Positions 81 through 64,000 of a DNA stretch of 64,000 nt are shown piece after piece. A program made the position numbers and the translations under genes. The stretch comes from Rhizobiales bacterium 64-17 (GTDB lineage: Bacteria; Pseudomonadota; Alphaproteobacteria; Rhizobiales; Xanthobacteraceae). The stretch is taken from positions 1 to 64,000 of the forward strand of contig MKWA01000024.1 in the NCBI GenBank assembly GCA_001899285.1, given 5' to 3'. The notes beneath the pieces were generated by a model that was given only the letters and a program-made list of their open reading frames with translations, did no database searches and was not told the origin of the DNA. Position 1 is the first letter of the stretch. The number at the start of each line of letters is the position of its first letter.

Positions 81-2765
81 TCAGATGGCGAGCGGTGCAG
101 CGTCATGATGCAGAAGCCGTTTCAGTTCCGGAATACAGGAGCCGCAATTCGTGCCGGCTTTCGTCGCCATGCCGATCGCGGCCGGCGTCGTCGCACCTTG
201 TGCGATACAAGCGCGGATCGGATTGAGGCCGACGTTGAAGCAGGCACAGACGGTCGGCCCCGGCTGCGCCACACCATCCGCCGTTTTGCCGGACAACAGC
301 AGCCGGCGTGCACTGTCATCGACAGCATCGCTGTCGAACAGTGCTTTGACCGTATCCCACAGCGGTAAACCCGACGCGCTGACGAACAGAGCGCCCGCAA
401 GGCGGCCCTCGCGGAACGCGGCCACGCGGCATTCACCTTTTTGTTGATCGCAATAATCGGCAAGCTCGACATCGTTGCCAAAGACGCGGTTCGCCCAACC
501 CTGCCAGACCGTCAGTTCGGCGTTGCCGGCAAACAGATAAGCGTCGCCGCCATTGACGGCGACGCGCGCCCACCAGCTTTCAGCGGGCCAATCGGGTACA
601 TCGCGCGCGAGGACGAAACCGCGATACCGAAACGTCACCGGCGCAACCGCGACGGGAGTAGCCTTTGCCTCCGGCTGTCCCGACACCGGATCAGTGAGCG
701 GCGCGATCAGCGCGCCGATCCGGGCATCGCTTGCGGTTTCGTTACTCCAGTGAATCGGCGCGAACACCGAACCGCGCTGCTGACCGGGAGTCAGCACGAC
801 CTTCAGCACGCACGCACCATGGCGCGTACGCAGCCGCGCGAATTCACCATCGCCAAGACCGTAGAACGCCGCATCGTCGGGGTGCACCTCGACAAACGGT
901 TCCATCAGATGCAGGCCGAGACGTGCGCTCAGCCCGGTGCGGGTCATGGTATGCCACTGGTCGCGGATACGGCCGGTGTTGAGCCGCAACGGGAAATTGT
1001 CGTGGAGCGGCTCGGCCAGCGCCACATCGGCCACCGCCGCGAATGACGCTTTTCCATCTGCATGGCAATAGCCACCATCGGCGAACAGACGGCTCGTGCC
1101 TCCGGCGCGCGATGAAACCGGCCACTGCACCGGTGTCATCACCGCAAAGGCGGCATCATCGAGATCGGCGAGCCCGCCAATATTGAAAGCGCGCGTGTGG
1201 TTGTTCTCGAAGGCTGATAGCGCCGCATGCTCGCGAAAGATGTCCGCCGCCGATCGATACGAGAACGCGTCGCCGAAGCCGAGCCGTTTCGCGACCTCTG
1301 AGACGATCCACCAGTCAGGCCGCGCCTGACCGGGCAACGGCAGGAACGGCCGCTGCCGCGCAATGCGGCGTTCCGAATTCGTCACCGTTCCGTCCTTCTC
1401 GCCCCAAGCCGCCGCAGGCAGAACGATATGCGCGCCAGCCGCCACAGTATCGTTGGAGCAAACATTCTCCGACACGACGAAAAGATCGAGCTTGCGCAGC
1501 GCCGCGCGCGCCGCATCGGCGTCCGGCAGCGACACTACCGGATTGGTCCCCATGACCCACAACGCCTTGATCTCGCCGCGCGCGACAGCCTCGAACAGAT
1601 CGACCGCCTTGAGGCCAGGATGCGTGGCCATCCGCTGTGCGCGCCAGAAGCGCCGCACGCGATCGATCTCGCGCGGCGTGAAATCCATATGCGCGGCAAG
1701 CTGGTTGGCGAGGCCACCGACCTCCCGGCCGCCCATGGCATTGGGCTGACCGGTGAGCGAAAACGGTGTTTGGCCTTCCATGCCGATCCGGCCTGTCGCC
1801 AGGTGACACTGGATGATTGCCGCAACCTTGTCGGTGCCTTGCGCGGACTGGTTCACGCCCTGCGAGAACGCGGTGACGATTTTCGGTGTCGCCTGAAACA
1901 GCCGAAAGAACTGCTCGACATCGGTGATCGCAAGCTTCGTCGCCGCCGCAACACTTGTCATATCCGGCGCGAGGCGGCGCGCCTGCGCAAGCGCAGTCGC
2001 AAAGCCATCGCTATACGCCGCGATATAGTCGAGATCCAGCGCACCCTGATCGGCAAGGAACACCAGCAAGCCGGAAAACAACACCGTATCCATACCCGGT
2101 GCGATGCCGAGGAACAGATCCGCATCCTCGGCGCTCGCGGTGCGCCGCGGATCGATGACGACGAGCTTCGCGCCGCGATCGCGCTTGTTCGCGATGATTC
2201 GCTGGTAGAGGACCGGATGGCACCAGGCCGCGTTGGAGCCGACCAGAACGATCAGATCGGCGGTGTCGAAATCGGCATAACAGCCGGGTACGACATCCTC
2301 TCCGAACACCCGGCGATGACCCGCCACCGACGACGCCATGCACAGCCGCGAATTGGTGTCGACATTGGCCGAGCCGATGAAACCTTTCATCAGCTTGTTG
2401 GCGACGTAATAATCCTCGGTCAGCAACTGACCGGACAGATAGAAGGCAACGGAATCCGGCCCATGGCGCTCAATCGTATCACGCAAGCCGTCCGCGATTG
2501 TTCCGAGCGCGTCATCCCACGAAGCCCGGTTTAACACGCCTCGTTCATTGCGCACCAGCGGATGCAGCAGACGGGTCTTGAGACCGAGCGTGTCGCCGAG
2601 CGCCGCACCTTTAGAGCACAACCGGCCGAAATTCGCGGGATGATCGGGATCGCCCGCGATCATCGCGCCGCCACGCCCGTCCGGCCGCGCCAGCACGCCG
2701 CAGCCGACGCCGCAATACGGACAGGTCGTCTTGACGGATGCCGGCGTCTGCAGCGGCGCGTTCAT
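81..2765 (-). CDS. nasA: Assimilatory nitrate reductase catalytic subunit NasA
   Basis: Cytoplasmic molybdenum bis-MGD enzyme that reduces nitrate to nitrite for assimilation. The 894-residue protein opens with a [4Fe-4S] ligand set (C15, C18, C22, C50) typical of the NasA/Nap/FdhA family, followed by molybdopterin oxidoreductase domains (GSNAAWCHP near 175, VMGTNPVVSLPDAD near 405) and the C-terminal molydopterin-binding domain (LNTGRIRDQWHTMTRTG near 600). The last 60 residues form a BFD-like [2Fe-2S] domain with a CACF and CGSC cysteine pattern, as in bacterial NasA proteins of about 900 residues. The start codon overlaps the stop of the upstream reductase gene by one base, so translation is probably coupled. 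No signal peptide is present, as expected for an assimilatory enzyme. Confidence 0.95.
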   Translation of the reverse strand: MNAPLQTPASVKTTCPYCGVGCGVLARPDGRGGAMIAGDPDHPANFGRLCSKGAALGDTLGLKTRLLHPLVRNERGVLNRASWDDALGTIADGLRDTIERHGPDSVAFYLSGQLLTEDYYVANKLMKGFIGSANVDTNSRLCMASSVAGHRRVFGEDVVPGCYADFDTADLIVLVGSNAAWCHPVLYQRIIANKRDRGAKLVVIDPRRTASAEDADLFLGIAPGMDTVLFSGLLVFLADQGALDLDYIAAYSDGFATALAQARRLAPDMTSVAAATKLAITDVEQFFRLFQATPKIVTAFSQGVNQSAQGTDKVAAIIQCHLATGRIGMEGQTPFSLTGQPNAMGGREVGGLANQLAAHMDFTPREIDRVRRFWRAQRMATHPGLKAVDLFEAVARGEIKALWVMGTNPVVSLPDADAARAALRKLDLFVVSENVCSNDTVAAGAHIVLPAAAWGEKDGTVTNSERRIARQRPFLPLPGQARPDWWIVSEVAKRLGFGDAFSYRSAADIFREHAALSAFENNHTRAFNIGGLADLDDAAFAVMTPVQWPVSSRAGGTSRLFADGGYCHADGKASFAAVADVALAEPLHDNFPLRLNTGRIRDQWHTMTRTGLSARLGLHLMEPFVEVHPDDAAFYGLGDGEFARLRTRHGACVLKVVLTPGQQRGSVFAPIHWSNETASDARIGALIAPLTDPVSGQPEAKATPVAVAPVTFRYRGFVLARDVPDWPAESWWARVAVNGGDAYLFAGNAELTVWQGWANRVFGNDVELADYCDQQKGECRVAAFREGRLAGALFVSASGLPLWDTVKALFDSDAVDDSARRLLLSGKTADGVAQPGPTVCACFNVGLNPIRACIAQGATTPAAIGMATKAGTNCGSCIPELKRLLHHDAAPLAI

Positions 2766-4402
2766 CAGTAGACGTCCTGCTGATAGCGCGATTTCCTCTT
2801 CAGATCACCGACGAAGACGATAGCCTCCTCGGTCGAGCGTGCGCTGTGGGTCGCGACAATCTCGATCAGCGCGCCTTCAACGTCTCGCGCCATCCGCTTG
2901 GCGTCGCCGCAGACGTAAATATGCGCGCCGTCCTTGATCCAGTTCCACAGCTCGGCGCCAACCTCGCGCATCCGGTCCTGCACATAGAACTTCTGATCGT
3001 CGTCGCGCGACCAGGCGAGAGACAGGCGCGTCAACAAACCCGACGCTTTCATCGCCGCGAGTTCATCCTCGTAGAAGAAGTCGTAGTCGCGCCGCTGATG
3101 GCCGAAAAATAGCCAGTTGCAGCCGGGCGATCGCGTCGCCATCCGCTCTTGCAAGAAAGCGCGGAATGGCGCCACGCCGGTGCCGGGGCCGATCATGATC
3201 ACCGGCACGGATGGATCGTCCGGCAGCGCGAACGCATGCGCCTTCTGAACATAAGCTTTCACAAAATCGCCGACCGCGAGCCGATCGGCAAAGCAGGTCG
3301 AAGCGACCCCGAGCCGCTCCCGGCCGTTGATTCGATAGCGAACCGCATCGATCGTCAGCGACACGTGGCCGGGCTTCGCCTTCGGCGACGACGAGATCGA
3401 ATAGAGCCGCGGTTGCAGCGGCTCCAGCGCCTCGACAAATGCCTCCGGGTCAGGCCGCACGTCGGGAAATTTCTCAAGCGCCGCGAGCACATCGAGTGTC
3501 GCCGCATCGCCGTCGGGATCGTCTCCTGCCGCCAGCGCCTTCAGCTTCTTCTTGCACTCGCCGCCACTGATATAGGACATCAACTGGAACAGGCTGTCTG
3601 GCGCGGGCGCAAGCGAGACGCTGTCGGTCAGCACCTCGCGCAGCGTCGATTCACCGATCGGCGTATCCGCCGTCGCGCCGAGCGTGGCGATGACACCATC
3701 GACCAACACGGAATCGTTGATCGGAAACACACCGAACGCATCGCCGGCCTGATAATCGATTCCGCTCTGCGACAGATCGATATCAATATGCCAGGTCTGT
3801 TTGTCGGAGCCAGGCCTGTTGAGCCGATAGCGCGCCGCGAGCCGCACCTCAGCGGGCGTTTCGCGCGAGGGTCCAGCCGCCATCACCGGCGGAACGGCGA
3901 CGACGGAAGTCACAGCCGAAACAGTTGCACTGTCCATCGGCGTCTTCGGCGCTGCGGGCTGATCGATCTCCAGCGCCAGCGCCTTCAGCGTGCGAGCGGT
4001 TTCCTTGCCGCCCGGCACGCAGAGATTGAGCCTTGCTTCCGTTTTCAGGAACAGAGCGTTGGAATAGTCCTCGCAACTGTACCCGCATTGTCCACAATCC
4101 TGCTGCGCCATCGCGGCCATCAAACGGCGCCGGACCGGGCGGTCCTCCGCCAGCGTCAGCCGCTCGGCGAGCGGCAATGACGGGTCGTGCCAGGGCGCTT
4201 CGCCATCATCGGCGTCGCCAAATTCGTTCTGCGCCGGCGGCATCAGCGCCGCATTCTGCTCTCGAGACAGCGCCGTTATGCCGGCGCCGTCGAGCGATAC
4301 CAGACCAGCGAAAAACCCGTTGAGCCACGAGCGCTGCTCCGGCGTGAACGGCGCTGTTTCCGGTACAAGCTCAATCGACGGTGACGCGGCGTGCTGAGTC
4401 AT
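2765..4402 (-). CDS. CysJ-like FAD/NADPH reductase with N-terminal Fe-S motif
   Basis: 545-residue protein related to the flavoprotein subunit of sulfite reductase. Residues about 180-545 form a CysJ/ferredoxin-NADP reductase unit: a FAD-binding segment with the RLYSISSSP motif near 333 and an NADPH-binding GPGTGVAPFRAFLQER motif near 400. The FMN (flavodoxin) domain of CysJ is absent. In its place is an N-terminal cysteine cluster (C103, C106, C110 and a fourth near 128) that looks like a [4Fe-4S] site. Databases often call such proteins sulfite reductase subunit alpha. Here the gene sits between nirA and nasA with overlaps on both sides, so I infer that it passes NAD(P)H electrons to nitrate and/or nitrite reductase. 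Confidence 0.85.
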   Translation of the reverse strand: MTQHAASPSIELVPETAPFTPEQRSWLNGFFAGLVSLDGAGITALSREQNAALMPPAQNEFGDADDGEAPWHDPSLPLAERLTLAEDRPVRRRLMAAMAQQDCGQCGYSCEDYSNALFLKTEARLNLCVPGGKETARTLKALALEIDQPAAPKTPMDSATVSAVTSVVAVPPVMAAGPSRETPAEVRLAARYRLNRPGSDKQTWHIDIDLSQSGIDYQAGDAFGVFPINDSVLVDGVIATLGATADTPIGESTLREVLTDSVSLAPAPDSLFQLMSYISGGECKKKLKALAAGDDPDGDAATLDVLAALEKFPDVRPDPEAFVEALEPLQPRLYSISSSPKAKPGHVSLTIDAVRYRINGRERLGVASTCFADRLAVGDFVKAYVQKAHAFALPDDPSVPVIMIGPGTGVAPFRAFLQERMATRSPGCNWLFFGHQRRDYDFFYEDELAAMKASGLLTRLSLAWSRDDDQKFYVQDRMREVGAELWNWIKDGAHIYVCGDAKRMARDVEGALIEIVATHSARSTEEAIVFVGDLKRKSRYQQDVY

Positions 4403-59936: not shown

Positions 59937-61259
59937 GTGACCTCTTCGCGCGATACCATTTTTGCTCTCTCGTCCGGACGGCCGCCGGCGGCGATCGCGG
60001 TGATTCGGATCTCCGGGCCGCGCGCCGGCGCGGCGCTGGAGGCGCTGACCGGCCGCATCCCGCCCGCGCGCAAGGGCGTGCTCGGCCGCATTCGTGAAAC
60101 GCCGGGCGGCGAGATGATCGACGAGGCGCTGGTGCTCTGGTTTCCGGGGCCGAATAGCGAGACCGGCGAGGACGTGGCCGAGTTGCAGTTGCATGGCGGG
60201 CCGGCGGTGATCGCCGCGACCCTGCGGGTGCTCGGCGCGATGGATGGGCTGCGGCTGGCCGAGGGGGGGGAGTTCACCCGGCGCGGGTTCGAGAACGGCA
60301 AGCTCGACTTGACGGCGGTGGAGGGGCTCGGCGATTTGATCGCCGCGGAGACCGATGCGCAGCGCCGGCAGGCATTCCAGCAGATGAAGGGGCTTCTGGG
60401 CGACCGCGCCGAGACCTGGCGGCGGCGGCTGGTCGAGGCGCTTGCTTTGGTCGAGGCGCGGATCGACTTTTCCGACGAGGCCGATGTGCCTGAGGATCTG
60501 CTGGGTCCGGCGCTGACGATTGTGCAGGGGCTGCGCGACGAGATCGCGGCGGCGCTGGCCGATGGCCGGCGTGGCGAGCGGTTGCGGGACGGGCTGATGG
60601 TGGCGGTGACGGGGCCGCCCAATGCCGGCAAATCGACCTTGCTGAACCGGCTGGCGCGGCGCGATGTGGCCATCGTCTCGCCGGTTCCCGGCACGACGCG
60701 CGACGTGATCGAGGTCCATCTTGATCTCAATGGGTATCCCGTGACTCTGCTCGATACCGCCGGTATTCGGGAATCGGCCGATCCGGTGGAGCAGGAGGGT
60801 ATTCGCCGGGCGCGCCAGCGGGCCGAGGCGGCGGATCTGATTCTCTGGCTTTCGGATTCGGGAGAAGAACCACCGTTCGGTTCTTCGACTCCAATTTTGA
60901 AGCTCCGAACCAAGGTTGATCTTCTTGACGAAAATGCGGACCAGAATTCATTTAATGAAAATAAGTTCGCTATTTCATCAAAATCAGATATCAATATTCA
61001 TCTTTTAATGGAGCGATTGGCCGCGTTCGCTGCATCATCCTTGCAGGGCCAGACGCCGGCTTTGGTGACGCGGGAGCGGCATCGCGGGTTGTTGCAGGCC
61101 ACCCTGGCCGGTCTGACCGAAGCTCTGGCGCATACCGAGCACGAACTGGTGGCGGAATCGCTGCGTCGGGCCGCCGATGCGCTGGGTCGGCTCACTGGCC
61201 GGATCGACGTAGAGGATGTGCTGGATGTGATCTTCCGGGATTTCTGCATTGGAAAGTAA
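59937..61259 (+). CDS. mnmE: tRNA modification GTPase MnmE
   Basis: 440-residue GTPase that with MnmG installs carboxymethylaminomethyl groups on U34 of tRNAs. The N-terminal folate-binding domain ([20 protein letters not shown]) precedes a helical domain and the inserted G domain: G1 [14 protein letters not shown]2 GTTRD, G3 DTAGIRES, and a variant G4 of TKVD. The C-terminus ends FCIGK with the conserved cysteine. The start is GTG at 59937. A stretch near 60865-61015, encoding the end of the G domain, is far more AT-rich than the rest. Eight consecutive G at 60264-60271 are in frame. Confidence 0.96.
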
Positions 61260-61268
61260 GCGGCGACT

Positions 61269-61284
61269 TGTTTCACGTGAAACA
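61269..61284. promoter_or_regulatory. parS: parS site 1 (ParB binding)
   Basis: TGTTTCACGTGAAACA is a perfect 16-base palindrome matching the chromosomal parS consensus TGTTNCACGTGNAACA. It lies 10 bases after the mnmE stop. Confidence 0.93.
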
Positions 61285-61366
61285 GGCCGGGCTTGCTGGG
61301 CGTAGTTCCCCGCAATGAATACAGAGTACGGCGGCCTGACAGGGGCTATGACTTCCTGTCCACCCG

Positions 61367-61408
61367 CATCCTGAGGAGGCCGCTGATCGGCCGTCTCGCA
61401 GGACGAGG
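61367..61408. repeat. Palindromic REP-like element (family A)
   Basis: CATCCTGAGGAGGCCGCTG followed by ATCGGCCGTCTCGCAGGACGAGG: the family A element, with outer arms similar to the copy at 21791-21837. The inner GGCC repeats pair with each other. Confidence 0.7.
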
Positions 61409-61427
61409 CGGCCCGGTGCCATGTCTT

Positions 61428-61479
61428 ATGGTTCGAGACGCCCGCGTTCGCGGGCGCCTCGGCGCGGTTCCCTCGTCAT
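61428..61479. repeat. Second REP-like palindrome, adjacent
   Basis: TATGGTTCGAGACGCCCGCG-TTCG-CGGGCGCCTC, then CCCTCGTCATGA. The core CGCCCGCG-TTCG-CGGGCG is a hairpin. The GTTCGAGACG arm resembles the TTCGAGACG arm of family A, so this is probably a diverged relative. Confidence 0.6.
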
Positions 61480-61492
61480 GAAGCCCTCGGTA

Positions 61493-61521
61493 TTGACTTT
61501 ATTCCTATTTTGTCGTAATCT
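61493..61521 (+). promoter_or_regulatory. Sigma-70-like promoter in mnmE-mnmG gap
   Basis: TTGACT (61493-61498) and TAATCT (61516-61521) with exactly 17 bases between them. The spacer is AT-rich in a GC-rich setting. A transcript would start near 61528 and run into the hairpin array. Confidence 0.55.
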
Positions 61522-61550
61522 CGCTTTGTCCTGCTCGGGAGGGGCGCTTC

Positions 61551-61706
61551 ATGAGGCGTTCTGAAGTGGAGCAGCTCGCCGAAGCCCTTCCGGGGCAGAG
61601 GTGGGGGCGCGGGCCGGAGATGTGGCCCGTGCACGATGCGGCGCCCGCGCGCAGGTCTCGCACCCTGCGTCCGGGACGCCCTGGGTTTGCCGTCCGCCCC
61701 AACTAA
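61551..61706 (+). CDS. Possible small ORF downstream of the promoter
   Basis: A 51-codon frame (MRRSEVEQLAEALPGQ at the start, ending FAVRPN) with GGGAGGGG six bases before the ATG. The product is rich in arginine and proline and has no recognisable domain. Its stop codon falls in the loop of the first hairpin of the structured region. It may equally be a chance frame in a non-coding repeat. Codon bias at third positions could not be assessed reliably on so short a frame. Confidence 0.25.
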   Translation: MRRSEVEQLAEALPGQRWGRGPEMWPVHDAAPARRSRTLRPGRPGFAVRPN

Positions 61707-61981
61707 GTGGGGCCGCCCGCAAGGGCTGGACGGGGTAGGACGAACGCGGGCCAAAGCCCGCGGGAGCCGGTGGGGTCCGATCCCGCAAGGATCGACAACT
61801 CCATCTGTCCGCGCCCCGGAAGCACGGTCCCGGGGAGCGAAATCGCCGCGATGATGGAGCGCCGCAAGGCGCGCGTGTCTCCGCTCGCACGGAGATGCGC
61901 TCCGGTGCTGCCGCGAGGTGGCATCGGTGGCTAAGACGTTGCGCTTCGCGGCGCTCCGTCCCCCTCGTCATGCGACGAGGG
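61691..61981 (+). ncRNA. Candidate structured RNA: array of consecutive hairpins between two parS sites
   Basis: Successive stems seen by eye: CGTCC (61691) with GGACG (61728-61732), enclosing GCCCCA/TGGGGC and GCCC-GCAA-GGGC as a three-way junction; CGCGGGC-CAAA-GCCCGCG (61745-61762); CGATCC-CGCAA-GGATCG (61778-61794); CCCCGG/CCGGGG (61814-61835); GCGCC-GCAA-GGCGC (61859-61872); TCTCCG-ctcgca-CGGAGA (61878-61895); a GU-containing stem capped by GCGA around 61910-61925; CCCTCGTC-ATGC-GACGAGGG (61962-61981). Three loops are GNRA tetraloops. I know no family with this layout. It could be a functional RNA or a dispersed repeat. The flanks (61527-61690 and 61982-62100) show no gene I can support. 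Confidence 0.5.
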
Positions 61982-62100
61982 AAGGAAAGGGCTTCCGGCG
62001 TCCCCGCGCCGCAAACAACAGGGGTGATTACGCATGCCTGCATGAACGCCGGGCACGACAGGAGCGGGCGAAACGACGGTTGGCCTACCTCAAGGTCCGT

Positions 62101-62116
62101 TGTTTCACGTGAAACA
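62101..62116. promoter_or_regulatory. parS: parS site 2 (ParB binding)
   Basis: A second exact TGTTTCACGTGAAACA palindrome, 832 bases from site 1 and 84 bases before the mnmG start. Confidence 0.93.
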
Positions 62117-62199
62117 CTTTACCGATCATCCCGGCCTTTGCTTTCGATCCGCCAAATCTATATGCCCATCCTCGCCGGCATCTGGAGCGGCTTCGCGAC

Positions 62200-64000
62200 A
62201 TGCAATTCGATGTGGTGGTGATCGGGGGCGGGCACGCCGGCTGTGAAGCCGCGGCGGCAGCCGCGCGCATGGGCGCGCGAACCGCGCTTTTGACCCATCG
62301 GTTCGACACCATCGGCGCCATGTCCTGCAATCCGGCCATCGGCGGCTTGGGCAAGGGCCATCTGGTGCGGGAAATCGATGCGCTCGACGGCCTGATGGGC
62401 CGCGTGGCGGATGCCGGCGGCATCCAGTTTCGCGTGCTCAATCGCCGCAAGGGTCCGGCGGTGCGTGGACCGCGCGCTCAGGCGGATCGCAAGCTTTATG
62501 CAACGGCGATGCAGACGGCGATCCGCGAAACGCAAAACCTCACGGTGATCGAAGGCGAGGCCGACGATCTGATCATCACCAACGATCGCATCGCCGGCGT
62601 TCGGCTCGCGGATGGCCGCGAACTGATCTGCGGCGCGGCGGTTCTCACCACCGGCACGTTTCTGCGCGGCCTCATTCATATCGGTGAGCAGCAGATTCCC
62701 GCCGGTCGCGTCGGTGAAGCGCCGGCGATGGGTTTGTCGCGCGCTCTGGAGCGCATCGGCTTCGCGCTCGGCCGTCTGAAAACCGGCACGCCGCCGCGGC
62801 TCGATGGCAAGAGCATCGACTGGCAGGCGCTGGAGATGCAGCCGGGCGACGATCCGCCCGAGCCGTTCTCGATGCTGACGGCTGCAATCAACACGCCGCA
62901 GATTCAGTGCGGCATCACGCGCACCAACGACGCGACGCATCAGATCATTCGCGACAACGTGCATCGCTCGCCGATGTATTCCGGACAGATCGCCAGTCGT
63001 GGTCCGCGTTATTGTCCGTCGGTCGAAGACAAGATCATGCGCTTCGGCGAGCGCGATGGTCATCAGATCTTCCTCGAGCCGGAAGGGCTCGATGACGACA
63101 CCGTTTATCCGAACGGCATTTCCACATCGCTGCCGGAAGACGTGCAGCGCGCGATTGTCGCCAGCATTCGCGGACTGGAAAAGACGCGCATCATTCGTCC
63201 CGGTTACGCGATCGAATACGATCATGTCGATCCGCGCGAATTGCAGCCGACGCTGGAAGCAAAGCGTATGCGCGGTTTGTTTCTCGCCGGACAGATCAAC
63301 GGCACAACGGGATACGAAGAAGCGGGCGCGCAGGGATTGCTCGCGGGATTGAACGCGGCGGCACGCGCGAGCGATAGCGATGCGATCACGTTCGATCGCG
63401 CGGAAGCCTATCTCGGCGTGATGATCGACGATCTCGTGACGCGCGGTGTCACCGAGCCGTATCGCATGTTCACGTCGCGCGCCGAATATCGTCTCGCATT
63501 GCGTGCCGACAATGCCGATCAGCGTTTGACGCAGAAGGGCATTGCGCTCGGCTGTGTCGGCGCGGAACGCGCGCACCATTTCACGCGCAAGAATGACGCA
63601 CTCAATGCGGCGCGCGATTTCGCCAAGTCGGTGTCGATCACGCCGAACCAGGCGAATGCGTTTGGTCTCGCGTTGAACAATGATGGACAGCGCCGCACGG
63701 CGTTCGAGCTGCTCGCCTATCCGACGATTGCGATCAGCGATCTCGCGCGCATCTGGCCGGAGCTTGGCGCGTTGCCATCGAAAATTGCGGAGCAGATCGA
63801 GATCGACGCGACCTATGATGTGTATCTGTCGCGGCAGGCGGCCGACATCGAATCCTATCGTCGCGATGAAAGCGTGATGCTGCCCGACGATCTCGATTAC
63901 GACGCGATCAAAGGCTTGTCGAACGAAGCGCGGCACAAGCTGGCGGCGCAGCGTCCGCGCACCATCGGTCATGCGGCGCGTCTCGATGGCGTGACGCCGG
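62200..64000 (+). CDS. mnmG: tRNA modification enzyme MnmG (GidA), 3' end missing
   Basis: 600 codons are present without a stop; about 20-25 residues are probably missing. It is the FAD-dependent partner of MnmE for cmnm5U34 synthesis. The N-terminal FAD motif is [20 protein letters not shown]; further conserved segments are [47 protein letters not shown], and the C-terminal [24 protein letters not shown] at 62183 may serve as ribosome binding site, at somewhat long spacing. In Rhizobiales rsmG, parA and parB normally follow, outside this window. Confidence 0.98.

Follow-up and report, generated by a model that had tools for sequence, protein, structure and literature searches.

We identified a non-coding element of about 550 nt, at about 61493-62044 on the forward strand of the window (the whole 64,000-nt stretch of contig MKWA01000024.1 that was analysed); its extent was taken from comparison of the copies in the same genome. 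The host site of this copy is a 940-nt gap between mnmE (59937-61259, forward strand) and mnmG (from 62200, forward strand), so mnmG lies on the same strand as the element, at least 156 nt downstream. Among relatives (24 loci tried, 21 measured), the mnmE-mnmG gap is 89-266 nt in 15 of the 21 measured loci, compared with 940 nt in the window; the gap is longer in the other six (510-2020 nt, with two probably false mnmE matches). Two TGTTTCACGTGAAACA sites, which we take to be parS-like, bracket the insert between mnmE and mnmG in the window (61269-61284 and 62101-62116), and many relatives have one TGTTTCACGTGAAACA-type site in this gap. REP-like palindromes (CATCCTGAGGAG..) are found at 61364-61490, immediately 5′ of the promoter of the window copy, and likewise upstream of several other copies.

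Its parts, all on the forward strand in the window, are a promoter and a helix domain at the 5′ end, a branched core containing a three-way junction, and, towards the 3′ end, a long-range helix and an H-type pseudoknot. The promoter-like region (61493-61521) has a -35 box TTGACT (61493-61498) and a weak -10 box TAATCT (61516-61521), separated by a 17-nt spacer containing TCCTA. The 5′ domain, P0 (61530-61575), pairs CUGCUC (61531-61536) with GAGCAG (61569-61574), and contains the conserved GAGGGGCG (61539-61546) and a small hairpin; it is followed by an insert (61575-61637), found in the window copy and in 4 of 13 other aligned copies of the same genome. The 5′ core (61638-61685) contains GCGGCGCCCGCG, a variable hairpin (61649-61669) and a conserved hairpin (61670-61685), and leads into the three-way junction (61691-61732), which is closed by CGUCC/GGACG and holds hairpin 1, with a conserved ACUA loop, and hairpin 2. 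Next are the tetraloop hairpin GCGGGC-CAAA-GCCCGC (61746-61761; helix 7 in the pair counting), whose loop is GAAA in most relatives, a variable hairpin that is not alike among copies (61771-61806), and a conserved region (61814-61849) with CCGGAAGCACGG and GAAA..CGCCGC. The latter is a possible partner of GCGGCG at 61638; the basis for this GCGGCG/CGCCGC pairing is one compensatory case (L015), and the same bases have a competing pairing. The 3′ domain (61855-61957) is a long-range helix (61855-61872 / 61938-61957) enclosing two variable hairpins, followed by the 3′ hairpin CCCUCGUC-AUGC-GACGAGGG (61962-61981), whose stem letters vary among copies, and the H-type pseudoknot CGGCGU-CCCC-GCGCCG-CAAACAACA-GGGG (61996-62024). 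The shared sequence ends at 62025-62044 without the GGCUGUUUGAnAAUnGnAUCGG tail seen in many copies. Since its -10 box is weaker and this tail is missing, the window copy, which also carries the 5′ insert, may be decaying.

The segment 61691-61981 folds at -174.4 kcal/mol on the forward strand (z -6.53; 0 of 200 shuffles as low), with z -4.65 on the reverse strand; for 61528-62044 the z-scores are -4.87 (forward) and -4.16 (reverse). An earlier note, made from the sequence alone, had described 61691-61981 as an array of about eight consecutive hairpins over about 290 bases, denser than chance, with a three-way junction in its first part and stems capped by GNRA tetraloops (GCAA twice and GCGA once). 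The observation held, and the fold is far below the shuffles; the junction (61691-61732) and the GNRA stems are present in the sequence. A row of local hairpins describes it only in part: the GCAA stem near 61865 competes with the long-range helix 61855-61872/61938-61957. The hairpin at 61779-61793 has a five-base loop, which is not GNRA. The range was also partial. The repeated unit (about 61493-62044) starts about 200 nt further upstream and ends about 60 nt further downstream, which makes 61691-61981 the middle of the element.

Compensatory changes were found among homologues, with the stems kept. The RNAalifold fold of 21 sequences has 38 pairs, 13 of them with changes on both sides, and the fold of 30 sequences from several families has 34 pairs, 22 with changes on both sides; paired cells make up 96.2% and 91.4% in the two folds, versus at most 53.2% and 58.8%, respectively, when slid. 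By pair counting, both folds are above all 500 shuffles on every measure. In P0, helices 1 and 2 (A2) show both-side changes in 7 of 8 and 5 of 6 pairs. In the folds as a whole, G-U pairs occur as intermediates on one strand. We also applied a tree-based covariation test, with a null of our own version, to 69 motif-chosen sequences aligned by MAFFT without structure: four pairs reached E <= 0.05, all of them in hairpin 1 of the three-way junction and each standard in 69/69 sequences. The next best was P0 pair 13-51, standard in 65/68 at E about 0.1. No pair reached E 0.05 in this test in the 3′ half (49 sequences), where pair 47-141 of the long-range helix is standard in 46/47 homologues and pair 54-134, which lies inside the supposed GCAA tetraloop, is standard in 42/47. 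In the second stem of the pseudoknot, 17 of 26 sequences have GC at pair 15-34 and the other 9 have CG; one of five measures for the pseudoknot (further pair types) was not above the shuffles (339/500), and outside Pseudolabrys this end resembles a plain hairpin. Compensatory changes beyond phylogenetic expectation, as required of a structured RNA family, are shown for the junction hairpin, and not for the 3′ half alone.

No Rfam 15 family matched above the gathering threshold in the 64-kb window or in 14 distant loci; the best match for 61260-62200 had an E-value of 1.4 (a trypanosome snoRNA, reverse strand). No description of the element was found in the open-licence literature searched. The earlier note had proposed either an undescribed structured RNA or an RNA-derived dispersed repeat, and both halves held. 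It had named a repeat whose stems are not conserved as a refutation, which was not met because the compensatory changes keep the stems.

Many copies are preceded by a promoter-like region. Both boxes were found at the expected distance in 37 of 76 anchored loci and in none of 380 shifted control windows; the -10 box alone was found in 57/76 loci vs 31/380 shifted windows, and the -35 box alone in 47/76 vs 34/380. One or both boxes are absent in 39 of the 76 loci. This test lost or wrongly anchored most copies with the 5′ insert; the window copy is among those mis-anchored. The GC content is 0.46 in the promoter region vs 0.61 upstream. By eye, TCCTA..TAGGA lies between the boxes in many copies, whereas those of several other genera show TTATCCCC or GGGGAT..ATCCCC further upstream in its stead. 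A second style of promoter region, which departs from the TTGAC/TCCTA style, lies 5′ of P0 in L165, L168, L171, L178, and L230-L238; it has TTATCCCCGCC together with palindromes of the form GGGGATA..TATCCCC. In two complete genomes most copies point with replication (16 of 18 and 11 of 14), and a third genome has no such bias (6 of 14). Two distant copies from one genome, L170 and L188, have a terminator-like hairpin, with a T run, that separates the 5′ domain from the core.

At the 3′ end, the tail may resemble the NusB/NusE boxA of rRNA leaders; no 16S leader was found for comparison, a search of the own genome for 16S having returned 0 matches, and the literature searched gave no sequence. 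Allowing one mismatch, the tail pattern occurs at 30 places in five genomes, 21 of them behind a match to R2, the broader of our two covariance models. The other nine comprise four at the ends of a second RNA type (see below), four at element ends (by R1, the other model, or by reading), and one in a coding frame.

The element is present in many copies. A BLASTN search of the own genome with 61628-61982 returned 18 segments (E <= 1e-11). Of these, 12 are nearly complete (including the window), five are truncated where a contig ends, and one is internal and diverges in its 3′ part. The covariance model R1 found 14 cores in this genome. The own-genome copies share 79-92% identity over long stretches and differ by insertions of whole hairpins, for example, a 30-nt hairpin that precedes the 3′ domain, or the 62 nt that separate P0 from the core in 5 of 14 aligned copies. 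The median identity is 0.849 within a genome vs 0.586 between genomes, and for 43 of 48 copies the nearest relative is in the same genome.

Counting the own genome, R1 matched 36 of 43 genomes of the same genus and 13 of 397 in the order sample, where R2 matched 22 of 397, spread over 15 of 142 genera and nine families; five of these 22 have a single match at E 1e-4 to 1e-3 and are uncertain. In the class sample, which also includes a few genomes of Hyphomicrobiales, the own genome was the one match among 289 (0 of the 288 others). Because few candidates were scored per genome (80 of thousands for the genus; 8 to 11 for the order and class), copy numbers in these samples are minimum values, and weak matches may escape; the E-values are rough, coming from shortened calibrations. 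As a check of the background, 1.2 Mb of sampled slices gave six matches of at least 62.9 bits, each a known copy; below these, leaving aside the second RNA type, the highest score was 18.5 bits. Of 14 genomes sought through named loci, 13 were searched and 11 were positive, with 1-25 copies each: 3, 9, 15, and 6 in Pseudolabrys genomes (the 6 in the named isolate Pseudolabrys sp. Root1462), 16 in Pseudorhodoplanes, 11 in a Rhodopseudomonas MAG, and 25 in a Rhizobiales MAG. Six better assembled genomes contain 18, 14, 9, 6, 17, and 6 copies. Relatives with the element also include Xanthobacteraceae genomes; among the 13 genomes searched, Bradyrhizobium erythrophlei GAS478 and Rhodoplanes tepidamans had no copy. 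The earlier note's suggestion of Bradyrhizobium-like genomes was thus right at the family level, with no copy in the one named Bradyrhizobium genome searched.

The window query matched no plasmid or phage sequence, and an origin from phages or plasmids was rejected on this ground. Two distant-homologue queries also had no match in plasmids; a third matched 21 plasmids over only about one tenth of the query, at an acyltransferase gene beside the RNA. In viral contigs, one strict pattern, which copies with the 5′ insert (including that of the window) would fail, gave 0 matches.

The copies are found next to unrelated genes. In other genomes, R2 had no match at any of 80 mnmG loci, where its best score was 17.5 bits (E 0.81); one of the 80, L106, is without upstream DNA. 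Most of the carriers tested have the element elsewhere than at mnmG. The downstream gene is on the same strand in 37 and on the opposite strand in 40 of 77 cases, and no Pfam family occurs in more than three of 137 flanking proteins. Among 82 distinct loci, the same arrangement of both flanking genes never occurs twice. About 30 pairs of loci have some flanking sequence in common, part of which is repeats, and in some pairs a single gene is shared on the same side. From the absence of shared gene pairs, the absence at mnmG, and the sharing of single genes, it is likely that the element moves or is lost often, and some sites may be inherited. Among the families shown, an IS1595 transposase domain is found in 2 of the 137 flanking proteins. 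Ten copies of one genome, inspected by eye, have sharp ends without inverted ends or target duplications; the ends were judged from these ten only, as no matched empty site could be aligned.

The flanking proteins comprise 132 of 148 flanking frames chosen by script and five added by hand, without a control protein set; because of those five, the set is tilted towards defence genes. A defence-gene partner was considered and rejected, since no PADLOC family occurs in more than 2 of the 137 flanking proteins. Upstream of the RNA at five distant loci we observed genes for a reverse transcriptase (PADLOC RT_UG13a), a phosphorylase-superfamily protein, a cytosine methylase, an HD protein, and a macro-domain protein (DarG). 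The RT_UG13a gene is located at 1943-3127 (forward strand) of L166, and starts upstream of, and divergent from, the distant RNA copy.

We find a second type of RNA with the same ends. The tail search in five genomes revealed four places that end another RNA, three in genome G406 (L319, L321, and L331) and one in Pseudolabrys bin_2003 (L306, in G726). In an alignment, the second type agrees with the first in its style of promoter, in P0 (including GAGGGGCG), and in the 3′ module, and has a different middle; R2 matches it weakly, at P0 (33.9, 19.1, 16.7, and 16.5 bits). Rfam gave only three matches in the four loci, all below threshold and all in L331 outside its RNA. The common ends and different middle suggest modular evolution, on four sequences only.

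Comparative sequence, and no other kind of evidence, establishes the fold, the promoter, the copies, and their independence from neighbours. The explanation that we favour, as more likely than not, is that the copies are autonomous genes for a trans-acting structured RNA that multiply within chromosomes. Transcription, action in trans, and the role of the 3′ end are inferred, without RNA-seq or Northern evidence; the feature of an autonomous gene that the copies do show is a promoter of their own at a fixed distance (37/76 vs 0/380). RNA polymerase would transcribe each copy from its own promoter, and in many lineages a regulator may read the spacer palindrome TCCTA..TAGGA. The transcript would fold into a 5′ domain exposing the purine-rich GAGGGGCG and a branched core with a conserved ACUACG loop, while the 3′ helix and pseudoknot would shield its 3′ end. 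The folded RNA is predicted to act in trans, either as a protein scaffold or in an RNA-only assembly, and new copies would arise by duplication into other intergenic sites, to be inherited or lost thereafter. Counting against this explanation are the third genome without replication bias, the 3′ half without a pair at E 0.05, the one pseudoknot measure that does not exceed the shuffles, the loci without one or both promoter boxes, and the possible decay of the window copy. The multi-copy, patchy, and position-variable pattern also fits a selfish element.

The main rival, which remains possible, is such a selfish SINE- or MITE-like element, transcribed and folded, with fold and promoter serving its own multiplication through an enzyme provided in trans. 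It is supported by the many copies, their patchy spread, the variable position (0/80 mnmG loci with a match), and the random orientation to the next gene; by copies that are more alike within than between genomes; and by the contig ends at 5 of the 18 own-genome segments, as repeats give. Against it, inspection by eye of ten copies from a single genome revealed no inverted ends or target duplications, a transposase domain is present in only 2/137 flanking proteins (among the families shown), and the window query is unmatched in plasmids and phages. In addition, several loci of different genomes with one common flanking gene on the same side suggest inheritance in place, and the promoter and RNA-level compensatory changes exceed what a MITE needs. 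A trans-acting RNA gene and a selfish element are not mutually exclusive.

It is very unlikely that the element serves the gene that follows it (mnmG in the window) as a 5′ leader, riboswitch, or attenuator. In favour of this reading, the window copy is upstream of mnmG on the same strand, and the terminator-like hairpin of L170 and L188, with its T run, lies within the element. Against it are the strands of the downstream genes (37 same, 40 opposite, of 77), the lack of any recurring neighbour family, and the absence of the element from every other mnmG locus. The unrelated neighbours and random downstream strand thus argue against a leader in general, and an mnmG leader was rejected on the strand counts and the absence at the 80 other mnmG loci.

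We consider it about as improbable that this is a DNA-level feature without an RNA role, be it a set of REP-like palindromes, a single strand that folds, or a binding array. REP-like palindromes do lie directly upstream of several copies, and the inverted repeats fold on the reverse strand too; however, the forward strand folds better than the reverse, G-U intermediates occur on one strand, and the pseudoknot, the conserved unpaired motifs, and the promoter at a fixed distance also speak against it. A small protein gene with a structured mRNA can be practically ruled out: many own-genome copies have a start codon after GAGGGGCG and a frame to a TAA in the junction loop, but the frame varies between copies, the start codon is missing in several, and there are insertions of 1-3 nt. 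Coding was rejected because the distance between two fixed motifs in 14 own-genome copies falls at 97-101 or 154-156 and does not vary by multiples of three; the earlier note's statement that no credible coding frame runs through the region therefore held.

Among known kinds, the autonomous RNA gene that we favour would by analogy work most like GOLLD, ROOL, and OLE, the function being inferred. These RNAs are likewise non-coding, hundreds of nt long, with elaborate pseudoknotted folds and unknown function (PMC12286853). GOLLD and ROOL are phage and prophage encoded, and all three families are in Rfam (PMC12286853), whereas the element has no Rfam match, is chromosomal and multi-copy with unrelated neighbours, and has a different fold. 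HEARO RNA is structured and similar in size, and is linked to mobile elements (in part PMC12286853). HEARO goes with a nuclease gene; the element, in contrast, has no recurring nuclease gene in its flanks and no Rfam match. Similar to the mobile or repeat candidates of a survey of non-coding RNAs in 50 genomes (PMC11109978), the element has many copies and inconsistent neighbour orientation; by the copy-number and orientation criteria of that survey it is a mobile or repeat candidate without the usual transposase link, and it differs from those candidates in being rarely beside a transposase and in having a conserved promoter and compensatory changes. REP and BIME palindromes are dispersed intergenic inverted repeats, as the element is, but the element is about 550 nt long and multi-domain, with a promoter at a fixed distance and a pseudoknot.

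A bolder reading, which in our judgment is possible but less likely than not, is that the two RNA types belong to a modular superfamily of large RNAs special to Hyphomicrobiales. Its 5′ module would be the promoter and P0 with GAGGGGCG, and its 3′ module the long helix, the pseudoknot, and the GGCUGUUUGAAAAUnGAAUCGG tail, with interchangeable middles (two kinds so far) in between; an RNA-encoded element of this kind would multiply and disperse in the chromosome without a protein gene of its own.

Few large structured bacterial RNAs of unknown function exist. The present element adds one that is chromosomal, has up to 25 copies per genome and its own promoter, and is accompanied by a sister type that differs in the middle but not at the ends. 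With a named isolate, Pseudolabrys sp. Root1462, among the carriers, the element is a tractable system for asking whether a bacterial RNA family can behave as a dispersed element, and whether functions pay for the copies. Its copies also mark places where assemblies break, as the own-genome segments at contig ends illustrate.
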